A stretch of DNA of 64,000 bases from Natrinema sp. SYSU A 869 (GTDB taxonomy: Archaea > Halobacteriota > Halobacteria > Halobacteriales > Natrialbaceae), in assembly GCF_019879105.1 (NCBI RefSeq), contig NZ_CP082249.1, forward strand, positions 1-64,000, read 5' to 3'. The position numbers and the translations under genes were made by a program. The notes below the pieces were generated by a model that did not search any database, was not told where the DNA came from, and saw only the letters and a program-made list of their open reading frames with translations. This document shows positions 12,904 through 29,471 of this stretch, in pieces (positions within the stretch are counted from its first letter, which is position 1; every line of letters starts with the position of its first letter).

Positions 12904-13057
12904 TGACGGCAGTCGGTAGTTCTCACTCGAAATCGATGTTCTCATTCGCAAGCAGTGGGTTCATGTCTCTCGGTTCCTAGCCGTCGATCAGGTACGATTC
13001 CGGAACCCGTTCCGCGAAGGTAGAAACTATTACTATCTTCGGAGTGAATCTCATCCC

Positions 13058-14296
13058 ATGGGAGTCGATTACTCACAGTTGCACGATCCGAACGCCGAGT
13101 ATACGATGCGAGATCTCTCATCGGAGACGATGGGCGTCACGCGAGAGCGCGGCGGCGGTCGAGACGTCGAGATCACCGATATCCAGACGACGATGGTCGA
13201 CGGCAACTTCCCGTGGACGCTCGTCCGCATCTACACCGACGCGGGAACCGTCGGCACCGGTGAAGCCTACTGGGGCGCTGGCGTCCCGGAACTGATCGAG
13301 CGGATGACACCGTTCCTTATCGGCGAGAACCCGCTGGACATCGATCGCCTGACGGAACACCTCGTCCAGAAGATGTCCGGCGAGGGCTCGATCGGCGGCG
13401 TCACCGTCACCGCGATCTCGGGCATCGAGGTCGCGCTGCACGATCTGGCCGGCAAGATCCTCGAGGTTCCGGCTTACCAGCTCCTGGGCGGCAAGTACCG
13501 CGACGAGATGCGGGTCTACTGTGACTGCCACACCGAGGAAGAAGCCGATGCCGATGCCTGCGCCGACGAGGCAGAACGCGTCGTCGAGGAACTAGGCTAC
13601 GACGCGCTGAAGTTCGATCTCGACGTGCCGAGCGGTCACGAGAAGGACCGCGCGAACCGTCACCTCCGCGAGCCCGAAATCGAGCACAAGGCCAAGATCG
13701 TCGAGAAAGTCACCGAGCGCGTCGGCGACCGCGCCGACGTCGCCTTCGACTGCCACTGGACGTTCTCCGGCGGCAGCGCGAAGCGACTCGCAAAGCGTCT
13801 CGAGGAATACGATATCTGGTGGCTCGAGGACCCCGTCCCGCCGGAGAACCACGACGTCCAGCAGGAGGTCACGCAGTCGACGTCGACGCCGATTACCGTC
13901 GGCGAAAACGTCTACCGGAAACACGGCCAGCGCCGCCTCCTCGAGGAGCAGGCCGTCGACATGATCGCGCCGGACATGCCCAAGGTCGGTGGTATGCGCG
14001 AGACGCGGAAGATCGCCGATCTCGCAGATATGTACTACGTGCCGGTTGCGATGCACAACGTCGCCTCGCCGGTCGCGACGGTCGCCAGCGCCCACGTCGG
14101 TGCTGCGGTCCCGAACTCGCTGGCGGTGGAGTACCACTCCTACGAACTCGGCTGGTGGGAGGACCTCGTCGAGGAAGACGTCATCGAGGACGGCTACATC
14201 GAGATCCCCGAGAAACCGGGCCTCGGCGTGACGCTCGATATGGACGTCGTCGAGGAGCACATGGTCGAGGGCGAGGAGTTGTTCGACGCGGCATAA
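13058..14296 (+). CDS. Sugar-acid dehydratase (gluconate/xylonate type), enolase superfamily
   Basis: 412 residues. It belongs to the mandelate racemase/muconate lactonizing branch. MGVDYSQLHDPNAEYTMRDL at the start and the 412-residue length match the haloarchaeal gluconate and xylonate dehydratases, which make 2-keto-3-deoxy sugar acids. Metal-ligand strands are visible: FDCHWT (about 230), WWLEDPVPPEN (about 256) and TVGENVY (about 282); DMIAPDMPKVGG and MHNVASP follow. The substrate cannot be fixed from sequence: gluconate would link it to the KDPG-type aldolase at 25.4 kb, xylonate to pentose oxidation. Its last codons and stop lie in the first hairpin of a 50-bp repeat array. Confidence 0.85.
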   Translation: MGVDYSQLHDPNAEYTMRDLSSETMGVTRERGGGRDVEITDIQTTMVDGNFPWTLVRIYTDAGTVGTGEAYWGAGVPELIERMTPFLIGENPLDIDRLTEHLVQKMSGEGSIGGVTVTAISGIEVALHDLAGKILEVPAYQLLGGKYRDEMRVYCDCHTEEEADADACADEAERVVEELGYDALKFDLDVPSGHEKDRANRHLREPEIEHKAKIVEKVTERVGDRADVAFDCHWTFSGGSAKRLAKRLEEYDIWWLEDPVPPENHDVQQEVTQSTSTPITVGENVYRKHGQRRLLEEQAVDMIAPDMPKVGGMRETRKIADLADMYYVPVAMHNVASPVATVASAHVGAAVPNSLAVEYHSYELGWWEDLVEEDVIEDGYIEIPEKPGLGVTLDMDVVEEHMVEGEELFDAA

Positions 14297-14428
14297 GCCG
14301 CGTCGAGCCAGCAAATCTCCGATTTGCGTTGTTCGACGAAGCGTGAGCTTCGTCGGGCTCGCTGAGCCTCGCTCAGCGGTGTTTGACGAGGCGTGAGCTA
14401 CGTCACACTCACGGAGCGTTGTCCGGGT
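14279..14428. repeat. Three 50-bp tandem units of covarying hairpins
   Basis: Units begin at 14279, 14329 and 14379. Each starts GTTGTTCGACG (third: GGTGTTTGACG). Hairpin A has 8-bp stems at 14285-14304 (GACGCGGC/GCCGCGTC, loop ATAA containing the stop codon) and 14335-14354 (GACGAAGC/GCTTCGTC, loop GTGA); the third copy at 14385-14404 is imperfect. Hairpin B in units 1 and 2 is GCAAATC/GATTTGC and GCTGAGC/GCTCAGC. Stems differ between units yet still pair. Confidence 0.88.
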
Positions 14429-14581
14429 TGTTTAATCCGGTATAACAGTATTGGAAATACGCTTTCTTTATTCAGAGTTAGTCGGGAAACTCGCGTTCAG
14501 TACAGGTAAGGAACACACCATTCAGTATATCCACTACATTAAAGTACATTTGAAGTATAAAATACTAACTAACCAACCGCT

Positions 14582-15019
14582 ATGGACGTACATCGTCGTC
14601 ATATTCTTGCTGGCCTCGGGATGGCTCCTCTGGGAGGGTGTTCAGAGAGATTCACATCCGATTCAGGGATCCAACTTGGGAGTCTTCGGGTCGCAAATAC
14701 GGCGGACGAACCACGTACCGTTGACTTGGTGTTAGAGAGAGACGGATCGCGTGTCTATAATGAGATGGTAGAGATCGATCCGGATAACCACGTCTGGATC
14801 GACCCGACGTGGTCCTCCGAACCAGCAGAATATGATCTGTATTATACAGTCTCAGGTTCGGACGAGGTGTCTATTGCAGAACTCACTAATGACGTTGCAC
14901 CAGACGATATTGACGGAGAATGCGTCGTTGCAGATTTGTGGACAGTTATGAACCCCTCTGGCGCTGACGTATTACTCAAGAGTGTAGATAGATATGAAGA
15001 GGCGAAGTGCAACTTCTGA
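14582..15019 (+). CDS. Predicted secreted lipoprotein, uncharacterised
   Basis: 145 residues: MDVHRRHILAGLGMAPLGGC is a short Tat-like signal ending in a lipobox-type Cys, so the product is probably lipid-anchored outside the cell. The mature part looks beta-rich (TADEPRTVDLVLERDGSRVY, then VWIDPTWSSEPAEYDLYYTV), suggesting an Ig-like or similar sandwich. The gene and its flanks (14.43-15.12 kb) are clearly richer in A+T than the neighbours, a sign of transfer or weak selection. No family is recognised. Confidence 0.6.
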   Translation: MDVHRRHILAGLGMAPLGGCSERFTSDSGIQLGSLRVANTADEPRTVDLVLERDGSRVYNEMVEIDPDNHVWIDPTWSSEPAEYDLYYTVSGSDEVSIAELTNDVAPDDIDGECVVADLWTVMNPSGADVLLKSVDRYEEAKCNF

Positions 15020-15164
15020 GTAGTTAGTATGCATATGATGGTACCGGATTGGTTCAGTTTCAGGAACCGCATCGTCGATAGCGACGGCGACCGCAAGTCC
15101 GCTGCGCTCTAACTATGGTGTACTACTACACCACAAATTTATTCCCCGGGCCGAAAGGAATCCC

Positions 15165-17282
15165 ATGGATCAGCGACGACTGTGCACGGACGGCGGTGAC
15201 CCCGGCTCCGGTGCCGCGCTCGAGAGCGGCGACGGCTCGCATCATCCCGGACCGCCGCGGTTCGTCACCGTCGGCGAGGGGATCGTCGATCCGAATGGAA
15301 ACGAAATGGAGACGCGCGACGACCTCGCGCCGCGGAACCCGGACGGGGACGGCACGTACGTCTGGCGAGTACTCGAGTCGCCCGACAGCTCGAGTGCGGC
15401 ACCGACTGACGGGCCGATCGCCGAGTTCGAACCGGACGTGCCGGGAACGTACGCGCTCGCGCTCGAGGCACCCGACGGCACGCACGAACTGACGGTCCGC
15501 GCGTTTCCCGAGGTGGACGAGGACGCGCCGCGCCCGCAGGTCGAACTCGAGGCGACGGTCGCGGACGGTCATGTCCGTCTCTCGGCGACCGCGAGCGTCG
15601 TCGGCGACGGTGATCCCAGCGTCGAGTACTACGTCGATGACCGGAACGGGGACGTGCTCGAGCCGAACGGGACGATTCCGGTCGATGCGATCGACGAACG
15701 GGTCCGCGTCTACGCCATCGCGGTCGATGAGCGCCACTCCGTTCCAGACGCGATCGAACTGGTTCTCGACGGCGAAGGGGCGAACGAACCATCCGTCCGC
15801 GTCGAGCGTCCGTTCGAGCCACCCGAGTGGGCCGTCGACGCGGTCGTCTACGAGATCTTCACCCGGCGATTCCCGGACCGGGACGAGCCCACGTTCGAGA
15901 CGATCGCGGATCGGCTCGACCACCTCGAGGCCCTCGGGATCGACGTCCTCTGGCTGTCGCCGTTTCTCGAGGCCGAGAGCGGGTTCGGGACGCCCGCGGA
16001 GCGCGGTGGTCCCCACGGCTACAATACTCGGGACTACTTCGAGGTCGATCCGGACCTCGGATCCGTAGCCGATTTCGAGGCGCTGGTCGACGCCTGTCAC
16101 GAGCGAGATATCCGGGTCGTCTTCGATCTCGTGATCAACCACACGGCGGACACGCATCCGTTCTACGAGGCCGCGGTCGACGAGACGCATCCCGACCACG
16201 AGCGGTACCGCGACTGGTACCGGTGGGAGGACTTCGACGAGCGCGACGCGGACACCTACTTCGGCTGGGACGACATTCCGAATTTGAACTACGCCAACCC
16301 CGAGGTCCGGGACTATCTGCTCTCGGTCGTCGACTACTGGGCCGAGCGCGTCGACGGCTTCCGCGCGGACGTCGCGTGGGGCGTCCCCCTGAGCTTCTGG
16401 ACCGAGGTGTCCGACCGAGTGAGCGGCGCGGACGGCGACTTGTTCCTGCTGGACGAGACCCTGCCTTCCGACATCGAGATGGGCGGCGGCCGGTTCCACA
16501 TGCACCACGACGACGTCCTCCACGACGCGCTCGAGCGATTGGGTGCGTCGTTCGCAGACGGCGGTACGGACGGGTCAACCGCGGCCGACAGCGCGGACGA
16601 ACCCGCCGACGAGACGGCAGCGGTTGCGGAGGGGAACGCGGTCGCTGACGAATTCACCGATTCCGCGGCCGATCTGGAGGCCACGACCGCCGACGCGATA
16701 CTCGAGGCGATCGAGGACCGGCAGCGCCGCGGTGCCCACCCCGACTCGGAGTGGTTGCTGTACGTCGAGAACCACGACACGGACCGGTATCTCACCGAAT
16801 ACGGTCGCGACGCGCAACTGGCAGCAAGCGCTGCGACGGTTACCCTCCCCGGCTCGCCGATGCTCTACTACGGACAGGAAACCGGCGTGATGGGACGGCG
16901 CGACCCGATGAACTGGGAGTCGTTCGATACGAACCTACTCGAGCACTATCGGCAACTGATCGACCTTCGGAAATCGCATCCGGCGCTGCAGTCCGATGCC
17001 GACCTCGAGCGGATTCCGTACGCGACCGACACCGACGCCGCCGTCGCGTTCGCGAGGGAAGCGCCGGCGAGCGGCCGCCGGCTCGTCGTCGCGTTGCACT
17101 TCGGTGACGGCACGGCGACGGTGCGGATCGACGAACCCGTCGAGGGAACCGACCTGCTGACGGACGAGGAGGTCGCGGACGATGATGGTACGGCCGATTC
17201 GTGGGCCCGCGAACTCGCTGTCGACACCGCCGTTGTCCTCGAGGCCGAGACGACGGACTCGAGCGAATCGGGCGGCCAGTAA
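15165..17282 (+). CDS. Cytosolic GH13 alpha-amylase/neopullulanase-like enzyme
   Basis: 705 residues with no signal peptide. Residues about 30-215 form beta-rich N-terminal modules (a fragment ending TYALALEAPDGTHELTV, then a cadherin/PKD-like repeat). The GH13 barrel starts near 225 (WAVDAVVYEIFTRRFPDRD). Catalytic regions: DLVINH (321-326), GFRADVAW with nucleophile Asp402, LLDETL with acid Glu431, and VENHDTDR. An acidic Ala/Asp-rich insertion precedes region IV. The N-terminal module plus barrel suggest a maltogenic amylase or neopullulanase acting on imported maltodextrins. It converges on the transporter permease genes, 29 bases from the malG-like stop. A start at 15165 is supported by an AT-rich box (AAATTTATT) about 30 bases upstream. 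Confidence 0.88.
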   Translation: MDQRRLCTDGGDPGSGAALESGDGSHHPGPPRFVTVGEGIVDPNGNEMETRDDLAPRNPDGDGTYVWRVLESPDSSSAAPTDGPIAEFEPDVPGTYALALEAPDGTHELTVRAFPEVDEDAPRPQVELEATVADGHVRLSATASVVGDGDPSVEYYVDDRNGDVLEPNGTIPVDAIDERVRVYAIAVDERHSVPDAIELVLDGEGANEPSVRVERPFEPPEWAVDAVVYEIFTRRFPDRDEPTFETIADRLDHLEALGIDVLWLSPFLEAESGFGTPAERGGPHGYNTRDYFEVDPDLGSVADFEALVDACHERDIRVVFDLVINHTADTHPFYEAAVDETHPDHERYRDWYRWEDFDERDADTYFGWDDIPNLNYANPEVRDYLLSVVDYWAERVDGFRADVAWGVPLSFWTEVSDRVSGADGDLFLLDETLPSDIEMGGGRFHMHHDDVLHDALERLGASFADGGTDGSTAADSADEPADETAAVAEGNAVADEFTDSAADLEATTADAILEAIEDRQRRGAHPDSEWLLYVENHDTDRYLTEYGRDAQLAASAATVTLPGSPMLYYGQETGVMGRRDPMNWESFDTNLLEHYRQLIDLRKSHPALQSDADLERIPYATDTDAAVAFAREAPASGRRLVVALHFGDGTATVRIDEPVEGTDLLTDEEVADDDGTADSWARELAVDTAVVLEAETTDSSESGGQ

Positions 17283-28711: not shown

Positions 28712-28888
28712 ATGGACGTTCCGTACGACCTCACCTCGTACATTCGGGTGCTGAAGATGGCAACGACACCCACTACTGAGGAGTTCCTCCAGGTATCGAA
28801 GATCGCCGGTGCAGGTATCCTTCTGGTCGGCCTCATGGGATTCCTCATCGGCGCGATCATGCTGCTCCTGCCCGGTGGTGGCGTCTAA
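28712..28888 (+). CDS. secE: Preprotein translocase subunit SecE (Sec61 gamma)
   Basis: 58 residues. An amphipathic N-terminal helix ([20 protein letters not shown]) is followed by one membrane helix ([20 protein letters not shown]). That is the complete archaeal SecE, which clamps the SecY channel. Its TAA (28886-28888) overlaps the ATG of spt5 by one base, the conserved archaeal secE-spt5 pair. Confidence 0.93.
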
Positions 28889-29325
28889 TGGGTATCTTCG
28901 CTGTCAAAACGACGGCGAGCCAGGAACGCACCGTCGCGGACATGATCATCAACCGCGAGGAGTCGGAAATCCACGCCGCACTCGCACCCGACTCACTGAC
29001 CTCCTACGTGATGGTTGAGGCCGAGGGCAATGCAGCCCTCAATCGCGTCCTCGAGGACATTCCGCACGCGCGGAGCATCGTCCCCGGCGAGTCAGACATC
29101 TCGGAGGTCGAGCACTTCCTCTCGCCGAAACCGGACGTCGAAGGGATCGCCGAGGGCGACATCGTCGAACTCATCGCTGGCCCGTTCAAGGGCGAGAAGG
29201 CCCAGGTCCAGCGCATCGACGAGGGGAAGGATCAGGTGACAGTCGAACTGTACGAGGCAACGGTTCCGATTCCCGTAACGGTGCGGGGCGACCAGATTCG
29301 CGTGCTCGATAGTGACGAACGGTAG
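28888..29325 (+). CDS. spt5: Transcription elongation factor Spt5 (NusG homologue)
   Basis: 145 residues. The NGN domain ([20 protein letters not shown] up to about 85) binds the RNA polymerase clamp and keeps it processive. A KOW domain follows ([20 protein letters not shown], then [15 protein letters not shown]). Length and domains are those of archaeal Spt5. Its final codons and stop form the first of a series of downstream hairpins (29314-29331). Confidence 0.95.
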
Positions 29326-29471
29326 TTCGTCGGACCATGCGAACGGGCAGTTCGGGACGGTTTCACCGTCCCGCAGTGCCCGTGAGCAGACAGTGACGAG
29401 CGCGTTAGCGCTCGTTAAGCAGTCAGCGCGGCGAAGCAGCGCTGAATATAGCGACGAACGATAGTTCGTCG
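29314..29471. repeat. Cluster of related hairpins after spt5
   Basis: Hairpins: 29314-29331 (GACGAAC/GTTCGTC, holding the spt5 stop in its loop), 29353-29373 (CGGGACGGT/ACCGTCCCG), 29396-29415 (ACGAGCGC/GCGCTCGT), 29424-29444 (CAGCGC/GCGCTG) and 29452-29471 (CGACGAAC/GTTCGTCG). The first and last are near copies; the third is a variant with compensating changes. The remainder of 29472-29775 holds no gene; 29680-29760 is AT-rich upstream sequence of the next gene. Confidence 0.85.

Follow-up and report, generated by a model that had tools for sequence, protein, structure and literature searches.

A widespread, fast-moving array of gene-end palindromes at a haloarchaeal dehydratase gene, perhaps recombining and with its arms homogenised by template switching

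A sugar-acid dehydratase gene in the window, by which we mean the whole stretch of 64,000 nucleotides of Natrinema sp. SYSU A 869 that was analyzed, ends inside the first of a series of ~50-bp hairpin units that carry copies of the gene's own end. The anatomy and spread of this array, the covariation of its stems, its origin from gene ends, the exchange of whole units and the inversion of loops show it to be widespread and fast-moving. With a probability of roughly 0.5, we regard it as a recombining array of gene-end palindromes at the dehydratase in which template switching keeps the two arms of a hairpin matched. Within this reading, we infer that recombination or template switching is the means by which units are exchanged, and that template switching is what keeps the stems.

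Anatomy of the Dehydratase Array

The host is a haloarchaeal genome of 5.67 Mb, and the neighbours of this protein in a dehydratase tree are those of Natrinema gari, Natrinema altunense and Natrinema pallidum. NCBIfam matches of the dehydratase (13058-14296) all fall under their cut-offs, the nearest being galactonate/gluconate dehydratases. The protein ends in EELFDAA-stop, and its final codons double as the 5' arm of hairpin A in unit 1. The gene and its array consist of the features below, scored where indicated with R1, a covariance model built from dehydratase units.

13058..14296, + strand: gene for an MR/MLE (enolase) superfamily sugar-acid dehydratase, galactonate/gluconate dehydratase-like (PF13378, E 2e-63; PF02746, E 5e-14)
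14282..14331, + strand: unit 1, gene-end palindrome A and hairpin B (R1, 70.1 bits)
14283..14306, + strand: hairpin A of unit 1, TCGACGCGGC-ATAA-GCCGCGTCGA, arm 10, including the codons GAC GCG GCA TAA
14311..14327, + strand: hairpin B of unit 1, GCAAATC-TCC-GATTTGC
14332..14381, + strand: unit 2, starting with the gene-end copy LFDEA-stop (R1, 69.3 bits)
14334..14355, + strand: hairpin A of unit 2, CGACGAAGC-GTGA-GCTTCGTCG, arm 9
14360..14378, + strand: hairpin B of unit 2, CGCTGAGC-CTC-GCTCAGCG
14382..14430, + strand: unit 3, with the gene-end copy VFDEA-stop (R1, 45.8 bits; fold)

The exact 50-bp spacing described in the original prediction holds, with unit starts at 14282, 14332 and 14382, and unit 1 does take in the final codons of the dehydratase gene together with its stop. 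Stems that differ between units and still pair were likewise found as described, GCAAATC/GATTTGC in unit 1 and CGCTGAGC/GCTCAGCG in unit 2. The same two hairpins had been expected in every unit; this is correct for units 1 and 2, in which both hairpins are perfect, but not for unit 3, in which hairpin A (14384-14405) has one mismatch and hairpin B has decayed to a 4-bp remnant (14412-14425). In unit 1, the 5' arm of hairpin A reads GAC GCG GC and the stop codon TAA sits inside the loop ATAA. The array is far more stable than its shuffled versions (z of -6.6 folded as RNA and -7.1 as DNA; none of 200 shuffles equally stable), and Rfam gave no match to the region 13000-15500 up to an E of 5.

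Just 3' of the array lies a stretch (14428-14510; ATAACAGTATTGG...ACTCGCGTT..GTACAG) that recurs behind the arrays of relatives and whose first part is found once more in the same genome, at G000:C3:661979-662013. It may be a terminator or the end of an element.

Units as Copies of the Gene End

Although units 2 and 3 lie 3' of the dehydratase stop, they open with TTGTTCGACGAAGCGTGA and GTGTTTGACGAGGCGTGA, which translate as LFDEA-stop and VFDEA-stop, a feature absent from the original prediction. In the general plan, a unit of ~50 bp starts at the shared anchor GTTYGAC and comprises hairpin A and hairpin B with short conserved linkers between. Hairpin A consists of the last four or five codons of the gene, with the stop in the loop, followed by their complement, and in every unit it is a copy, mostly synonymous, of the gene end (LFDEA-stop). 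A stop is the fifth codon in 66 of 95 distinct downstream units, and third codon positions account for 102 of the 156 differences. In 16 cases, this window included, a hairpin A that belongs to the first unit in one genome recurs in a later unit of another. The downstream units were thus once the end of the gene or were copied from it, and we propose that they still read as gene ends because they were recently first units. The earlier statement that simple duplication does not give such an array needs qualification: the units are the gene's own 3' end, copied, and are gained, lost and exchanged as blocks, but the matched change of both arms goes beyond duplication alone.

Distribution of the Array

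Array units were found at the gene end, at E <= 1e-5, in 37 of 80 homologous loci from named genomes. Searches with R1, which is biased towards dehydratase loci because it was built on dehydratase units, gave a match in 78 of the 101 genomes searched from the host's family (E <= 0.01) and in 119 of 243 from its order (E <= 1e-5). The dehydratase is present at 34 of 40 further unit sites from the family and at 37 of 40 from the order (one gene truncated). In the host's own genome, R1 matches with E below 1e-8 are confined to its two dehydratase genes, the second of which is a paralogue 187 kb away (L002) with its own array of like make; a genome-wide dispersed repeat was ruled out for this genome. 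Arrays also stand behind the dehydratase gene on haloarchaeal plasmids, for example pHTUR02, and megaplasmids are among the carriers. The idea that the units are chance repeats or an assembly artefact deserves practically no credence, because the array recurs in more than 100 assemblies, complete chromosomes among them, and nothing was found in its favour. Literature searches on haloarchaeal palindromic or tandem hairpin repeats returned nothing on point.

At one locus (L320, 1498-1703), the dehydratase is cut to its first 49 residues and fused to EELFDER-stop, and the array unit is still there.

Turnover and Exchange of Units

Presence of the array on a tree of 82 dehydratases requires 23 changes, barely below the mean of 27.5 for shuffled labels; near-identical dehydratase genes differ in their arrays, and about half of the close homologues are without one. 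Between relatives that are 97-98% identical in the gene, the difference is exactly one unit, gained or lost in frame (L181/L126, L081/L205 and L078/L084), so that the codons of one unit stand in place of those of another at the end of the gene. A stems and B stems combine freely among units. Units are 94-98% identical between families, which is more than would be expected from mutation bias alone without transfer or selection, and this counts against the template-switch reading.

In our preferred reading, units would be exchanged by recombination, or by microhomology-driven template switching, at the repeated anchor, and the exchange partner would in part be DNA of other species, arrays being found on megaplasmids also. 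Gain of units at the gene-proximal position only was not borne out: the differing unit is next to the gene in five of six independent close pairs, where 4.1 are expected, and this is not significant. Strict growth from the gene side with distal decay is a trend only (p 0.06), and a stronger figure for distal decay is biased by conditioning on the first unit. At L271, the gene end and array are tandemly duplicated as a block of ~298 bp.

Paired Change of the Hairpin Arms

Covariation statistics and comparison across many genomes strongly support the compensated change of stems that was originally described from three units. In 49 distinct units, 89.1% of cells pair, against 75.4% after shuffling, and both-sided changes occur in 141 cells, against 46.5. 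In 149 distinct units aligned to a covariance model, an alignment that leans to structure, 91.4% of pairs stand (77.5% shuffled) and double changes number 417 (136 shuffled). The main covariation measures were reached by none of 500 shuffles, slid controls were far lower, and positions of the B stem show up to four Watson-Crick pair types. The coding arm gives a further view of this pattern, in that, in first units, the Phe, Asp and Glu codons covary at their third positions with the opposite bases of the untranslated arm (59/2/5/13, 62/3/1/8 and 28/0/2/19 in the respective tables), with Fisher probabilities of 1e-8 to 1e-11 that, like those for covariation, are too small by some factor because the sequences share ancestry. 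Uncompensated decay of stems, which would speak against paired change, is not general among relatives, although some downstream units do decay.

Covariation of this strength is also what would be seen if the units were a selected RNA structure of the 3' UTR, serving as mRNA 3'-end stabilisers or terminators with stems held by compensatory selection. The array is always sense to the gene and starts at the stop codon, its RNA fold is stable (z of -6.6), the common A tetraloops GTGA and GTAA are GNRA loops as RNA, and hairpins bring about some degree of transcription termination in Haloferax volcanii (PMC7237163). We nevertheless find this explanation rather unlikely. The absence of the array from about half of the close homologues and its differences between near-identical genes argue against it, as do the downstream units, which tolerate loop inversions that would break the GNRA pattern, and the hairpins at stop codons, which are not enriched over genes generally. 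In a structured sense RNA under selection, G.U pairs should be tolerated more than A.C pairs. Here, the in-stem counts of G.U and A.C are 48 and 45 in the model alignment with the two end pairs left out, and 48 and 25 in a simpler, ungapped parse; because G.U is not clearly above A.C, these counts appear to hold no clear signal of selection on the sense RNA. The loops of hairpin A belong to the set C(GTA)G, C(GTGA)G, C(GTAA)G and C(GAA)G. GNA and GNNA loops make very stable DNA mini-hairpins, and the A-loop type, which fits these and, for the tetraloops, RNA GNRA as well, does not decide between RNA and DNA.

Loop Inversion and Template Switching

The loop of hairpin A is inverted, with the stem kept, in 6 of 67 downstream units (~9%), at six different loci, and in none of 70 first units, in which inversion of the loop would remove the gene's stop. 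The inverted loops are TTAC (four times), TCAC and TAT (TTAC or TCAC for GTAA or GTGA, and TAT for ATA), and besides these only one tetraloop is as far as two bases or more away from the usual set. Inverted pairs are not in excess among the B loops (p 0.73). Monttinen and Loytynoja (2022; PMC8794818) regard an inverted loop as the most telling sign that a template switch has taken place, and the inverted A loops appear to be footprints of this process. Two mechanisms had been offered at the outset; template switching has gained a footprint in the inverted loops, whereas selected RNA structure is left without a clear signal (G.U 48, A.C 45).

We envisage that, within a unit, template switching during replication at a hairpin would copy one arm onto the other; the stem would thereby be made whole again whenever a synonymous substitution had altered the gene, and the loop would occasionally be inverted. 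Of 151 B stems, as many as 52 are imperfect, so that stepwise change under selection is also possible, which counts against the template-switch reading.

Comparison With Known Systems

The closest parallels differ from the array in setting and make-up. Template-switch hairpins described previously (PMC8794818) resemble it in that both arms change together and loops are inverted, but they are found in rRNA and microRNA genes, whereas the array is tandem, is joined to the end of a coding sequence and has the loop inverted in ~9% of its downstream units. Integron attC sites similarly keep their structure as the sequence changes, and the site overlaps a gene end, but the array has no cassettes between its units. 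CRISPR arrays also have evenly spaced units and a possible gain at one end; in contrast, the array has no constant repeat, and the parts between are palindromes. At E. coli icd, integrating phages (e14/phage 21) displace the 3' end of the gene, and here too earlier ends of the gene, altered by synonymous changes, are left downstream of the functional copy; however, no integrated element or integrase was found, and the units of the array are of ~50 bp, tandem and palindromic. REP/BIME are short bacterial palindromes that cluster just behind genes, as the units do, but the array is not scattered (E below 1e-8 at only two loci in its own genome), one of its arms is coding, and the arms match the local gene.

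The array documents, in many natural replicates, how palindromes stay perfect. Because the genetic code constrains one arm and leaves its partner free, synonymous changes can be traced into the mirror arm. The origin of compensatory changes, by two steps under selection or by one template switch, thereby becomes directly testable. In addition, cassette-like exchange of gene ends extends through an entire archaeal class, and we found no description of it in the literature searched.

Arrays and Hairpin Clusters at Other Genes

A second gene in the window, encoding Spt5, has the same kind of array, and the copies of its end are synonymous.

28888..29325, + strand: Spt5 gene (NGN and KOW; Pfam PF03439 and PF00467), protein end DSDER-stop
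29313..29471, + strand: hairpin cluster behind Spt5, with the gene-end copies AGTGACGAGCGCGTTAG and AGCGACGAACGATAG, both SDER-stop

In the Spt5 genes of relatives, the copies reach 22 codons with at most 10 differences, almost all of them at third positions and the rest mainly serine or stop-codon switches. At L244, L248, L254, L256, L270 and L271, long displaced copies of the Spt5 end follow a stretch of ~110 bp with TACTAAATTTTGC...GTAAAATTTAG arms.

Units also stand behind genes unrelated to the dehydratase, as follows.

L336: HTH_10 regulator ending in VFDET-stop, with five units behind
L332: DNA polymerase-like gene ending in AFD-stop, with units behind
L164: cellulase-like gene ending in ELFESL-stop, with units behind
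L185: DnaK-like gene end, with units behind
L165, around 1985-2031: 3' end of a tRNA, behind which stand hairpins and incomplete copies of that end
L300, 1966-2165: 4Fe-4S protein ending in VFDDE-stop, on the Haloferax larsenii plasmid pHl5678-2, with a hairpin block at an overlapping stop/start junction

Most of these unrelated ends have GTTYGA in common, and their arms match the local gene. The T-loop of the tRNA at L165 holds GGTTCGAATCC, the same anchor as at the GTTYGA gene ends.

Such ends seem to keep a targeted insertion process open, in which a small mobile element or att-like site would be inserted repeatedly by a recombinase or transposase at GTTYGA gene ends, bringing a replacement end each time. 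The ~20-bp direct repeat that flanks the hairpin block at L300, where both overlapping genes are intact, is consistent with insertion, and the placement of the differing unit next to the gene in five of six close pairs would be as well, although 4.1 are expected. We consider insertion unlikely, since the arms fit the local gene end rather than a fixed binding site and phage records contain no match. Moreover, displaced original gene ends are present downstream both at Spt5 (up to 22 codons) and in the dehydratase units, but in 21 genomes, covered to 20 kb around Spt5, the displaced end never lies beyond ~0.4 kb and no integrated element separates it from the new end. This indicates that there is no element body there, and an integrated element that had carried the old gene end far away was rejected for Spt5. 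It is similarly doubtful that a dedicated haloarchaeal process adds ~50-bp hairpin units at selected GTTYGA gene ends; if it did, each event would supply a new last-codon cassette and push the old end downstream, and the array would be a record of replaced ends. A viral link was discarded, the sole match on a viral contig (L299) being an unrelated AT-rich one and no phage record matching.

Clusters of at least four hairpins in 160 bp occur three times in 464 kb, against 0.2 by random placement, and two of the three are in the window. In a sample of 363 genes of the host's genome, predicted with a simple ORF caller, an exact copy of the last four residues was found behind two, those for topoisomerase VI subunit A and Spt5, where permutation gives 0.01. 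The idea that stop codons of haloarchaea lie within hairpins as a rule was abandoned, with no excess at the 363 predicted gene ends. Further clusters of strong hairpins, with GCGAATC/GATTCGC-like stems and no obvious tie to a gene end, are located at G000:C3:385700-386150 and at L210. The gene for topoisomerase VI subunit A (G000:C3:296170-297390; L233, 12170-13390) itself ends in a hairpin (MGVL-stop) and has a synonymous copy of its end, ATGGGCGTACTGTAG, within 70 bp downstream.
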